Below, piece after piece: positions 5,399-56,750 of a stretch of 64,000 nt of DNA. The translations under genes were made by a program, and so were the position numbers. How positions within the stretch are numbered: the stretch's first letter is position 1; each line of letters opens with the position of its first letter. Source of the stretch: Daejeonella lutea (lineage in GTDB: Bacteria; Bacteroidota; Bacteroidia; Sphingobacteriales; Sphingobacteriaceae); assembly GCF_900168015.1 (NCBI RefSeq), contig NZ_FUYR01000001.1, forward strand, positions 157,968 to 221,967, in the 5' to 3' direction. The notes beneath the pieces were generated by a model that was given only the letters and a program-made list of their open reading frames with translations, did not search any database and had not been told where the DNA came from.

Positions 5399-6001
5399 CT
5401 ACCTGGTAAACGTTGAGTTCAGACCCTGAATGAAGTGCAATATTTCCTCTCTGCCATCCTGTGTTTCAGAAGATGTGATGTAATGCTGCGGAACCTCTTC
5501 GAAAATTTCCAGCAGCGCTTTACGAAATTTCGCAACTGCCTGGTCTGTCTTAACCCGGGATTGCTTGTCTGCTTTGGTAAAGATCAGTTGAAATGGCAGG
5601 CCATTTTCACCAAGCCATGAACAAAATTCAATATCGATTTTTTGCGGCTCAAGTCTGCTGTCAATCAGTACAAATACGCATTGCAGATTTTCCCTATTCC
5701 GAAGATAAAAGCTGATGAATTTCTGCCAGTCGGCGCGATTGCTCCGAGAAGTCTTCGCATATCCGTATCCGGGAAGATCCACGAGATGCCAATTTTCATT
5801 GATCAGAAAGTGGTTTATCAATTGAGTTTTACCGGGAGTTTGAGAGGTTTTGGCAAGGCCCTTTTTCTGAACAAGCATATTTATCAGAGAGGATTTGCCC
5901 ACATTTGAACGTCCTATAAATGCGTATTCAGGCAATACCGGAGGGGGTAATTTGTCAGTTCTTGTATTGCTGCATTGAAATTCTGCGCTTTTGATTATCA
6001 T
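5399..6001 (-). CDS. engB: Ribosome biogenesis GTP-binding protein EngB/YsxC
   Basis: Small GTPase needed for late large-subunit ribosome assembly. All G motifs are present in 200 residues: GRSNVGKSS at 30-38, the threonine-containing switch TSQTPGKTQ, DLPG at 75-78 and TKAD at 142-145. Length is typical. First gene of the engB-ubiA-pepF operon; a TAACTTTG promoter ends only 5 nt before the ATG, so the leader is very short. It is divergent from menG, and both promoters are flanked by 7-nt repeat arrays. Confidence 0.96.
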   Translation of the reverse strand: MIIKSAEFQCSNTRTDKLPPPVLPEYAFIGRSNVGKSSLINMLVQKKGLAKTSQTPGKTQLINHFLINENWHLVDLPGYGYAKTSRSNRADWQKFISFYLRNRENLQCVFVLIDSRLEPQKIDIEFCSWLGENGLPFQLIFTKADKQSRVKTDQAVAKFRKALLEIFEEVPQHYITSSETQDGREEILHFIQGLNSTFTR

Positions 6002-6006
6002 CCGGA

Positions 6007-6014
6007 CAAAGTTA
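6007..6014 (-). promoter_or_regulatory. TAnnTTTG -7 promoter element of engB
   Basis: TAACTTTG on the minus strand, 5 nt before ATG 6001. Its upstream edge overlaps the first unit of the 7-nt repeat array at 6011-6038. Confidence 0.65.
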
Positions 6015-6038
6015 TGCGTTTTACGTTAAACGTTATGT
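6011..6038. repeat. Heptanucleotide array, engB side
   Basis: Four consecutive 7-nt units of the form GTTWWRC (for example GTTTTAC, GTTAAAC), directly upstream of the engB promoter. The same unit occurs in inverted orientation at 6116-6150. Confidence 0.8.
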
Positions 6039-6115
6039 GTTTTTTAAGTTAGACGTTTCTAAATACGCCGGAAGTTTAAATACTAATAATAGCTTGTTAT
6101 TCGCTTATTGTGCGC

Positions 6116-6150
6116 AAGCAACGTATCACGTACAACGTAAAACGTAAAAC
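6116..6150. repeat. Heptanucleotide array, menG side
   Basis: Five 7-nt units ending in two exact copies of GTAAAAC, immediately before the menG -7 element. It is the inverse complement family of the array at 6011-6038; 77 nt separate the two, so the arms could pair. Confidence 0.85.
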
Positions 6151-6152
6151 TC

Positions 6153-6160
6153 TATCTTTG
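6153..6160 (+). promoter_or_regulatory. TAnnTTTG -7 promoter element of menG
   Basis: TATCTTTG, 7 nt before ATG 6168. The -33 position falls inside the heptamer array and shows no TTTG. Confidence 0.65.
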
Positions 6161-6167
6161 CAAGCGT

Positions 6168-6899
6168 ATGTCCAAACCCGTTACCCCTTATCGCGATTCG
6201 GAAGCTTCCAAAAAAGAACAGGTCGCTACGATGTTTAACAATATTTCAGGTACTTACGACTTTCTGAATCATTTCCTTTCACTTGGTATTGATGTTATAT
6301 GGCGAAAGATAGCCATTCGTGAACTGCTTAAAGACAAGCCTAAACACATACTTGACGTCGCGACTGGCACCGGTGACTTTGCCTTTGAATCTATAAAGAT
6401 CTTAAATCCCGAAAAGATTACAGGAGTTGATATTTCTGAAGGGATGCTCGCTATCGCCAAACAAAAGATCCTGAAAAGGAACCTTCAAGACGTTTTCGAT
6501 GTAAGGCTGGGCGATTCTGAGAAGCTTTTATTTGAGGATAATAGTTTTGATGCAGTAACCGTCGCATACGGGGTGCGTAATTTTGAAAACCTCGAAAAAG
6601 GTCTGTCAGATATGCTGCGGGTACTTAAACCGGGCGGCAAGGCAGTAATACTTGAATTCTCCAAACCGCGAATTTTTCCGATCAAACAGGGGTATAACTT
6701 CTATTTCAAATATGTGACCCCATCCATAGGTAAGCTTTTTTCTAAGGATGCAAGCGCTTATAGTTATTTGCCTGAATCGGTTGCTGCATTTCCAGATGGG
6801 AAGCAGTTTACCGACTTAATGATTAAAGTTGGATTCCAAAATACCAAATGGCGTCCTCTAGCGTTTGGGATTTGTTCGATTTATACCGGCACTAAATGA
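6168..6899 (+). CDS. menG: Demethylmenaquinone methyltransferase MenG/UbiE
   Basis: SAM-dependent C-methyltransferase performing the last step of menaquinone synthesis (demethylmenaquinone to menaquinone). Class I SAM-binding glycine motif DVATGTGDFAFE lies near residue 65; the family motifs VAYGVRNFENLEKGL and GGKAVILEFSKP follow. The length of 243 residues is typical. Its last 4 nt (ATGA) overlap the porT start, so the two are translationally coupled. A short-leader promoter and a 7-nt repeat array precede it. The phylum uses menaquinone, so a ubiquinone role is unlikely. Confidence 0.95.
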   Translation: MSKPVTPYRDSEASKKEQVATMFNNISGTYDFLNHFLSLGIDVIWRKIAIRELLKDKPKHILDVATGTGDFAFESIKILNPEKITGVDISEGMLAIAKQKILKRNLQDVFDVRLGDSEKLLFEDNSFDAVTVAYGVRNFENLEKGLSDMLRVLKPGGKAVILEFSKPRIFPIKQGYNFYFKYVTPSIGKLFSKDASAYSYLPESVAAFPDGKQFTDLMIKVGFQNTKWRPLAFGICSIYTGTK

Positions 6900-7655: not shown

Positions 7656-7683
7656 CATACTCTATACTTGTTACTTTATACTT
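7656..7683. repeat. Heptanucleotide array upstream of the SDR gene
   Basis: Four 7-nt units of consensus TATACTT (two exact) between porT and the SDR gene. A near-consensus -7 element, TATTTTCG, follows at 7697-7704. Confidence 0.75.
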
Positions 7684-7718
7684 TCCACTAATTCCTTATT
7701 TTCGATTTTTATTTATTT

Positions 7719-8533: not shown

Positions 8534-8771
8534 CATTGCATGAAAAAGCCGCAGCGCAGTCGCTTGCAGTTAGCTCATTGCATGAAAAAGACGCAACGGA
8601 GTCGCTCCGAGCGACATCATTGCACGAAAAAGACGCAACAGAGTTACTCGGAGCGACATCGTTGCATGAAAATGCCGCGATATAGTCACTCAGAACCACA
8701 TCATTGCGTGAAAAAGACGCAACAGAGTCGCTCGCAGCTACAACGATGCATGAAAAAGACGCAACTTTGCA
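8534..8771. repeat. Six-copy 42-bp tandem repeat
   Basis: Units begin at 8534, 8576, 8618, 8660, 8702 and 8744 (the last partial), exactly 42 bp apart with no spacers. The well-conserved core reads TTGCATGAAAAAGACGCAAC; the second unit also contains a perfect 15-nt palindrome, GTCGCTC-C-GAGCGAC, at 8601-8615, decayed in the other units. Because 42 is a multiple of three, one frame on each strand stays open (8540-8776 on plus, 8490-8810 on minus), coding 14-residue repeats, but neither looks like a convincing gene. The block fills most of the 383-nt gap between the SDR gene and the yqeY-like gene. Confidence 0.95.
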
Positions 8772-16744: not shown

Positions 16745-16790
16745 GAGCTCTCATAAATCATAAACAAAAAACAGAACAAACAATAAAACA

Positions 16791-56490: not shown

Positions 56491-56499
56491 GGAAATTAA

Positions 56500-56534
56500 G
56501 TTGAGAGTTGGGAGTTGAAAGTTGAAAGTTGTGC
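56500..56534. repeat. Heptanucleotide array upstream of pyrR
   Basis: Five 7-nt units of consensus GTTGARA, two of them exact GTTGAAA, 9 nt upstream of the pyrR -7 element. Confidence 0.85.
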
Positions 56535-56633
56535 TGCAGGCGACAGGTCGGTCATGGTATAATAAACTACCACAACTATTCGAGCTAGCATATGGGATAA
56601 AACCCGTATAACAAATCCTTAATTTCTAGGGAG

Positions 56634-56666
56634 ATTCTTCGGACTTTCTTCGGAGGTTCTTCGGAG
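56634..56666. repeat. Three-copy 11-nt direct repeat
   Basis: Three tandem 11-nt units with core TTCTTCGGA (56634, 56645, 56656). They lie in a 339-nt gap (56466-56804) that otherwise holds the pyrR promoter and heptamers at one end and the rpsA terminator at the other; 56535-56633 and 56667-56748 show nothing recognisable. Confidence 0.8.
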
Positions 56667-56750
56667 GACAACCGCATGATCTTCGATGTGAATCCGAGGA
56701 AAATATGATCAATGTTTTTCTGAAATAATTAGTTGTTAACCGCCAGGCAA

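Follow-up and report, generated by a model that had tools for sequence, protein, structure and literature searches.

Heptamer-armed inverted repeats in the spacers of Daejeonella lutea: the engB-menG element and its genome-wide class

Between the divergent genes engB and menG of Daejeonella lutea, two mirror-image runs of 7-nt units adjoin the presumed promoter boxes of both genes. This layout raises the question of whether the runs serve the two promoters, or whether they belong to an element of another kind that happens to lie there. The window in which they were found, i.e., the whole stretch of DNA analyzed here, comprises 64,000 nt (positions 157968-221967 of contig C10) of a genome of 4.03 Mb, referred to as G000. 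Its features are listed in Table 1; gene borders come from our own ORF heuristic instead of a gene finder. Depending on the analysis, arrays were accepted from a score of 7 (gap types, orthologous gaps, inverted pairs), 9 (coverage, junction motif) or 10 (period counts). One search of 61 genomes, in which 58 matched, listed 30 loci, 27 of them new; another, directed at the rpoB-rpoC gap, matched in 60 of 61.

Table 1. Features of the engB-menG spacer and other period-7 runs, in window coordinates.
Feature	Position	Strand	Basis
engB	5399..6001	-	ORF; relatives found; gene name from the sequence-only reading
menG	6168..6899	+	ORF; relatives found; gene name from the sequence-only reading
TAACTTTG, engB box, 5 nt from the engB start codon	6007..6014	-	sequence
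TATCTTTG, menG box, 7 nt from the menG start codon	6153..6160	+	sequence
Left arm, G-first strand: GTTATGC GTTTTAC GTTAAAC GTTATGT	6011..6038	+	sequence, array scans
Left arm, degenerate extension (AAGTTAG, ACGTTTC)	6039..6059	+	by eye
Core of 77 nt separating the arms	6039..6115	.	sequence
Right arm, complement of left: (AAGCAAC) GTATCAC GTACAAC GTAAAAC GTAAAAC	6116..6150	+	sequence, TRF, scans
Array of the class, unit AGTTGAG; similar array in the orthologous gap of G003	56499..56531	+	TRF, scans
Array, C-type strand, unit ATACTTT; GGGAATA/CCATTCC pair in the orthologous gap of G003	7657..7684	+	TRF, gap comparison
A-rich period-7 run, weak, class membership doubtful	16751..16787	+	period scans

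The mirror-image runs beside both boxes, first pointed out in a reading of the sequence alone, can be read directly from the DNA. TRF reports the right run as 6120-6150 with a period of 7; the first of its five units, AAGCAAC, is a poor match. In period scans the right run scores 15.5 and the left run 8.0. The left run is too weak by itself, but it extends degenerately to about 6059 and complements the right run. That the arms could pair across the core, as had been supposed, agrees with a DNA fold in which they do so around a 77-nt loop, although the stretch folds just modestly better than shuffled sequence (z -1.46; 17 of 200 shuffles equally good). The runs at 6011-6038 and 6116-6150 are the two arms of one hairpin-forming inverted-repeat spacer, a member of a genome-wide class. 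Within its core, the letters CTAAATACG (6059-6067) could derive by decay from the CTRRRCG junction described below (weak, by eye). TAACTTTG and TATCTTTG, both of the TAnnTTTG type, are what we take to be the -7 boxes of engB and menG. They lie 5-7 nt from the start codons (6001-6014, 6153-6168), and similarly near in relatives; this distance suggests that the mRNAs of both genes are leaderless or almost so.

Since both arms abut -7 boxes, the arrays might be a promoter signal, i.e., phased or shaped DNA upstream of such boxes, and the sequence-only reading had tied them to promoters in this way. The counts do not bear this out. Arrays cover 3.4% of the sequence within 60 nt upstream of a TAnnTTTG box (440 of 12,957 bp; 15 of 289 boxes, chance box matches included), compared with 3.2% of other intergenic DNA (4,652 of 144,493 bp), so there is no enrichment. 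Coverage is densest in the 60 nt past stop codons (7.3%; 3,203 of 43,591 bp) and drops to 0.07% in coding sequence. Of the array edges, 40 of 157 for stop codons and 13 of 177 for starts come to about 10 nt or less from the gene end. By length, arrays make up 6.8-6.9% of tandem gaps, 5.4% of convergent gaps and 3.3% of divergent gaps, the lowest fraction (604 kb of G000 and 239 kb of G003); despite this, an array is present in 19 of 91 divergent gaps, as often as in convergent (17 of 80) and tandem (60 of 389) ones, because divergent gaps are about twice as long. The engB-menG gap itself points the same way: of 14 relatives checked, 12 lack the inverted pair and yet have both boxes. The CAAAnnTA box at the engB position is present in all 14 checkable gaps of the genus besides that of G003, and the TAnnTTTG box at menG in 13 of 16 relatives other than G003. 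Among 18 gaps of the genus, only those of G000 and G003 contain two arms, and their cores differ; there is one GAGTTTN-like run in G013, a weak run each in G008 and G011, and no run in the 13 others (for G005 and G014, the 150 nt before menG were covered). Coverage by box and by gap type thus rules against a promoter signal, which we consider barely credible. Most likely, the engB-menG element is a tolerated spacer whose effect on the two promoters would be incidental at most, and the case is a caution against calling period-7 runs near promoters operators.

The class to which this element belongs is far more abundant in the genome than expected by chance. Contig C10 of G000 (1,004 kb) has 117 noncoding period-7 segments, compared with 2 of period 6 and 5 of period 8; the next commonest period that is not a multiple, 11, has 21 segments, and period 14, the double, has 95. 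Shuffling leaves means of 0.1 and 0.75 noncoding period-7 segments in two regions. These counts and TRF agree on a period of exactly 7, the value proposed from the window. In G003, the nearest relative by menG, 639 kb contain 72 segments of period 7, 3 of period 6 and 1 of period 8. Nine more genomes of the genus, sampled at 40 kb each, have no period-7 segments (four genomes) or 1-5 (five genomes), and 50 kb of E. coli yielded 0 noncoding ones. A single pattern, ACGTNNNACGTNNNACGT, occurs at 115 places in G000, while its backward control occurs at none; among 60 genomes including G000, it is found at 116 places in G003, 14 in G054, 13 in G004, 7 in G007 and 0-3 in the others. The arrays share the characters of heptameric simple sequence repeats: a tandem 7-nt unit that is over-represented and mainly intergenic.

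The units are diverse (ACGTTNT, AAGTTNT, TAATCRG, GTTGAGA, TTAGGCN, AAGTATC, GGTGAAA, and more); they vary between loci and agree inside one element. By eye, G-tracts are absent from ACGTTNT, AAGTTAT and TAATCRG arrays and present in some TTAGGGG and GGGAATA arrays. The sequence-only reading had noted a different unit in each array and had argued against one sequence-specific operator; both points are right: there are many unit families, and units differ between loci. Inside the window alone, period 7 is not outstanding by number: a maximal-segment scan (score at least 9) finds three runs of it, as many as of period 9, along with two of period 10 and one of period 11, while periods 5, 6 and 8 are absent. 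Other repeats of the window are a 42-bp tandem repeat of 5.5 copies (8534-8765), which overlaps a minus-strand ORF of 106 aa, and the tandem repeat GGAGGTTCTTC of 11/22 bp (56623-56667), which shares its gap with the AGTTGAG array. Elsewhere in G000, a heptamer-armed element with ACGT units lies in the 23S-5S rRNA spacer (L016, 165-367, at the end of contig C1; also L017). An Rfam scan of 14 loci outside the window at the gathering threshold returned only 23S and 5S rRNA.

The elements have a common architecture. Array neighbors at most 250 nt apart form 60 inverted and 29 direct pairs, and the G-richer strand comes first in 55 of the 60 inverted pairs (C-left in 3, zero in 2; binomial 2e-13 on 58). 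Two of the three C-left exceptions lie within clusters of repeats and may mark where neighboring elements meet. In a smaller set of 31 pairs (from 604 kb and 239 kb), C never outnumbers G in the left unit. The polarity also appears in where arrays lie within gaps: in the left half of gaps of every type G-type arrays prevail (64 vs. 16 overall), and in the right half C-type arrays (48 vs. 31 overall, with only 12 vs. 11 in minus-strand tandem gaps). Because this rule holds across gap types, it is a property of the DNA element and not of gene direction. Moreover, left-arm units of diverse families share a single phase, T-W-R-T-M-A-G (3.87 bits), in which C is almost missing at positions 2-3, G at position 4 and T at positions 5-6; permuted controls reach a mean of 2.45 bits (maximum 2.64, 40 runs) and strand-flipped controls 3.06 (maximum 3.18, 20 runs). 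The logo rests on 57 of the 60 pairs, and since the three C-left pairs were dropped, its phase is conditioned on polarity. In 36 of 209 arrays (a set without those that have neither skew nor a family rule), CTRRRCG occurs no more than 6 nt from the inner end; it is as near to the outer end in 2, and a pyrimidine control gives none. The motif adjoins units of several families. The core motifs CAGCGTTTAG and CTGGGCGGANA occur 41 and 40 times in G000, compared with 3 and 2 for backward controls, but are not clearly above control in G007 (4 vs. 1 and 5 vs. 4). Their surroundings were viewed at 30 of 70 and 30 of 76 places, respectively; many of the places viewed are outside arrays and some are probably coding. 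In G000, CAGCGTTTAG adjoins other spacer sequence of the CTCTGCG/CTTTGCG type (L316, L319, L332; by eye).

The geometry alone, with G-left and C-right arms towards the gap edges, would also fit scars of double-strand-break repair, in which both 3' ends received G-first heptamers prior to being rejoined (cf. interstitial telomere fusions). However, the unit is matched between arms and yet locus-specific, unlike what a common added template would give, and recurrence at the same gaps (see below) is left unexplained; we consider this origin highly improbable.

A mobile palindromic element, whose arms would be terminal inverted repeats and whose copies a transposase would spread in trans, would account for other observations. 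REP/REPIN and MITE elements are dispersed intergenic palindromes of fixed sequence that occur in many copies and depend on a transposase. An intact 24-nt core, CTGGGCGGATAGCACAGCGTTTAG, is indeed dispersed, with 6 copies (at most 3 mismatches) in G000, 10 in G003, 1 in G007, and none in the 57 remaining genomes of 60 or in the controls; copies occur in tandem and in both orientations, and in one orthologous gap the core is oppositely oriented in G000 (82687) and G003 (266871). The core motifs CAGCGTTTAG and CTGGGCGGANA occur 41 and 40 times in G000, compared with 3 and 2 for backward controls, but are not clearly above control in G007 (4 vs. 1 and 5 vs. 4). Their surroundings were viewed at 30 of 70 and 30 of 76 places, respectively; many of the places viewed are outside arrays and some are probably coding. 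In G000, CAGCGTTTAG adjoins other spacer sequence of the CTCTGCG/CTTTGCG type (L316, L319, L332; by eye). Against mobility, no target duplication was noticed by eye at element ends, units vary between copies, and the intact core is missing from most arrays. The sequence is free here, unlike that of REP, REPIN or MITE elements. The REP-type Y1 transposase (PF01797) is present in 13 of 20 genomes of the genus, but the two richest sampled genomes have 0 (G000) and 1 (G003) matches; its absence from G000 counts against a REP/RAYT mobilizer. Overall, a mobile element appears unlikely.

How the elements change over time can be seen in orthologous gaps. Among 87 gaps shared by G000 and G003, 11 hold arrays in both genomes, where 3.5 would be expected by our own arithmetic; 3 hold arrays in G000 only, 11 in G003 only, and 62 in neither, weak arrays of score 7 being included. 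Three operon junctions were followed through the genus. At rpmJ-rpsM, 14 of 19 genomes have 7 as their best period, with 17 G-left and 2 C-left. By eye, six species have an AAGTTAT-like unit, G003 and G007 have ACGTTGT together with the core, and G019 has an AGTTGAC-type unit; G008 and G012 have mixed arms, and most others have other or weaker inverted repeats. The outer flanks remain unchanged while the unit is replaced. At nusG-rplK, period 7 is best in 15 of 17 genomes and all 17 are G-left; a GTCGCAT-type core is common to species with AAGTT and with ACGTT units. At rpoB-rpoC, period 7 is best in 18 of 19 genomes and all 19 are G-left, with about nine different units. At these three junctions, the inverted repeat is kept across most species examined; the unit differs, and it does so in both arms together.

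Gap lengths bear on the proposal, made from the window, that the arrays arise by 7-nt expansion. Within allele groups, lengths differ between species by steps of 7, 14 and 21, as such a process would predict: at rpmJ-rpsM, 90 and 111 nt within one group; at nusG-rplK, 124 (G010), 131 (G007) and 138 (G011), and 161 and 147 in another group. Other lengths do not fit 7-nt steps, such as 90 vs. 91 at rpmJ-rpsM, where array-bearing gaps measure 91 (four), 105 (two), 90 (four) and 111 nt, or 133 in G003 at nusG-rplK; nor is the difference between 91 and 105 a clean step, because the core of G003 and G007 differs too. Exact arm-to-arm copying, a possible way to keep both arms alike, is a weak candidate: in 15 of 22 cases the two arms of an element match each other better than they match, on average, same-family arms of other elements, a marginal excess in a test for which 22 of 57 pairs were usable.

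Relatives that are alike at one site are unlike at another: G002 and G017 are alike at nusG-rplK, and G008 and G012 at rpmJ-rpsM, while both pairs are unlike at rpoB-rpoC. This points to cassette exchange. Near-identical rpoB-rpoC alleles (L409-L427) are shared by G012 and G017, and by G002, G008, G010 and G018, although these species are unlike at other gaps; it is as though cassettes had passed from one species to another via the conserved rpo genes.

Structure is retained more widely than any unit. Outside the genus, 27 genomes from 12 genera were compared at rpoB-rpoC; period 7 is best in 18, with 21 G-left, 3 C-left and 3 zero; some genomes have 8-nt units (genus g15 and G072; L433, L442, L446, L447) or plain hairpins (g3 and g11; L444, L445, L448, L451, L453). 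Compared with dinucleotide shuffles, folding reaches z < -2 in 16 of 18 rpmJ-rpsM gaps, 13 of 17 nusG-rplK gaps (folded without the conserved last 55 nt) and 42 of 44 rpoB-rpoC gaps (18 of 19 in the genus and 24 of 25 elsewhere); the 28-nt rpoB-rpoC gaps of G062 and G095 and the 27-nt rpmJ-rpsM gap of G014 are too short to fold. Own arms beat the mean of species-swapped arms in 18 of 18, 15 of 15, 18 of 19 and 22 of 22 cases (73 of 74 in four sets), although near-identical relatives are among those swapped and the species cannot be counted as independent. Hairpin potential is fairly common outside arrays too: among co-directional G000 gaps of 60-140 nt, z < -2 is reached in 31 of 115 array-free gaps and 3 of 7 with arrays.

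These results weigh against purely mutational 7-nt slippage in neutral intergenic DNA, with structure unselected, for which a polymerase-contact idea exists (Mrazek et al. 2007, as cited by MacGregor 2015, PMC4679880). Such slippage would suit a period of exactly 7 in unrelated units, the 7-nt length steps inside allele groups, the near confinement to spacers, and ACGTTNT arrays in many phyla (among the matches listed). However, it predicts neither mirror-image arms and polarity nor 42 of 44 folding rpoB-rpoC spacers in this and other genera, and we regard it as distinctly unlikely as the whole explanation. Period 7 as a means of placing stop codons in all frames was also considered, by thought only, and is contradicted by units without stop codons. 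Two further candidates weighed in the same way are a Chi-like orientation and telomere-like end addition.

A function at the RNA level, as terminators or as processing or stability elements, would make the heptamers an accidental way of building hairpins. The density of arrays past stop codons, the conserved fold at three co-directional junctions and the plain, non-heptamer hairpins of some relatives there are consistent with this reading, as are gaps of weak periodicity, where the sense strand is the more stable in 7 of 9 (rpmJ-rpsM) and 3 of 4 (rpoB-rpoC, genus) cases. Clear arrays, however, show no consistent sense preference in wobble pairs or stability. Wobble pairs have no sense-strand bias, which speaks against an RNA hairpin with selected wobble pairs. 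Among 35 co-directional elements, the sense strand folds better in 15 and the antisense strand in 20; where orthologous gaps have clear arrays, the antisense strand is ahead in 23 of 31 gaps within the genus, but the sense strand in 8 of 12 from other genera. Because sense RNA is not consistently favored, a cause at the DNA level or one blind to strand is as likely as an RNA cause. Elements also occur between divergent genes, engB-menG being one, and on balance we find an origin as RNA hairpins rather unlikely.

The explanation that we prefer, at roughly even chances of being right, combines several processes in heptamer-armed hairpins. Units would gain and lose copies through 7-nt slippage, and would be homogenized between the arms and dispersed copies via template switching or gene conversion. 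Whole cassettes could be exchanged by recombination through conserved flanking genes, and selection might keep the hairpin itself, independent of sequence, at some junctions, chiefly rpoB-rpoC. In the class as a whole, the unit tends to change between species while period, mirror layout and hairpin persist. The polarity is left unexplained by slippage. The rpoB-rpoC junction is a natural experiment on why the period is seven and on whether the arrays do anything: it offers an orthologous position between co-directional essential genes, many units, and 7-nt steps.

Arrays of this kind extend beyond the genus. ACGTTNTACGTTNTACGTTNTACGT matches at least 115 stretches in named genome contigs, from Bacteroidota, Geobacter, Geomonas, Chloroflexi, Planctomycetota, gammaproteobacteria and others, and several among the matches listed have a second, inverted array close by. 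Among the matches listed, pairs without ACGT are G-left in 19, C-left in 5 and zero in 2 cases, and pairs with ACGT in 29, 8 and 9, a sample biased by the choice of loci through the ACGTT pattern. The G-first polarity is looser across phyla than in G000 and G003.

Heptamer arrays, and inverted pairs of them in Xanthomonas, are already in print. The Xanthomonas GGGAATC arrays are described as intergenic, with 70 and 75 convergent pairs, an orientation that we read as G-strand first; they lie nearer to the upstream gene (28 vs. 160 nt on average), are rarer between divergent than between convergent genes, and the prominent repeats are at different genes in two species (Rehm et al. 2015, PMC4692102, which also cites the long simple sequence repeats with a 7-nt unit of Mrazek et al. 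2007). The arrays of G000 and G003 are similar in that they are inverted in close pairs, with the G-richer strand on the left. However, there the unit is a single G-rich, quadruplex-capable one, whereas here many units have a common phase, some arrays have a junction motif, and sites are common to several species.

TAACTGA direct repeats are reported from Beggiatoaceae, Cyanobacteria and five Bacteroidetes (MacGregor 2015, PMC4679880), so that there is a description for the group in which the sequence-only reading knew of none. They are intergenic, mostly just 5' of start codons in the main genome, with one indirect repeat, and indels between two Cyanothece strains are mostly 7-nt steps; they were interpreted as sites of a translational regulator, and a heptamer excess is cited from Mrazek et al. 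2007 (MacGregor 2015, PMC4679880). Read on the other strand and rotated, TAACTGA becomes TTATCAG and fits the TWRTMAG consensus found here, but it forms direct repeats, whereas the present arrays are often in inverted pairs. Among the matches listed in the open-licence literature (titles and beginnings of abstracts), there is no mention of polarity across unit families, of a shared unit phase or of conserved rpoB-rpoC heptamer hairpins; polarity across unit families and structure that outlives sequence seem to be new. It is possible, and we would hold it only tentatively, that such elements are pan-bacterial: hairpin spacers free in sequence and conserved in structure, with G-first heptamer arms, that persist at the same operon junctions on a family-level time scale as one unit after another is replaced. 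If so, the fixed period and polarity would be the signature of a single copying machinery, and GGGAATC of Xanthomonas, TAACTGA of Beggiatoa and the present arrays would be local alleles of one phenomenon.
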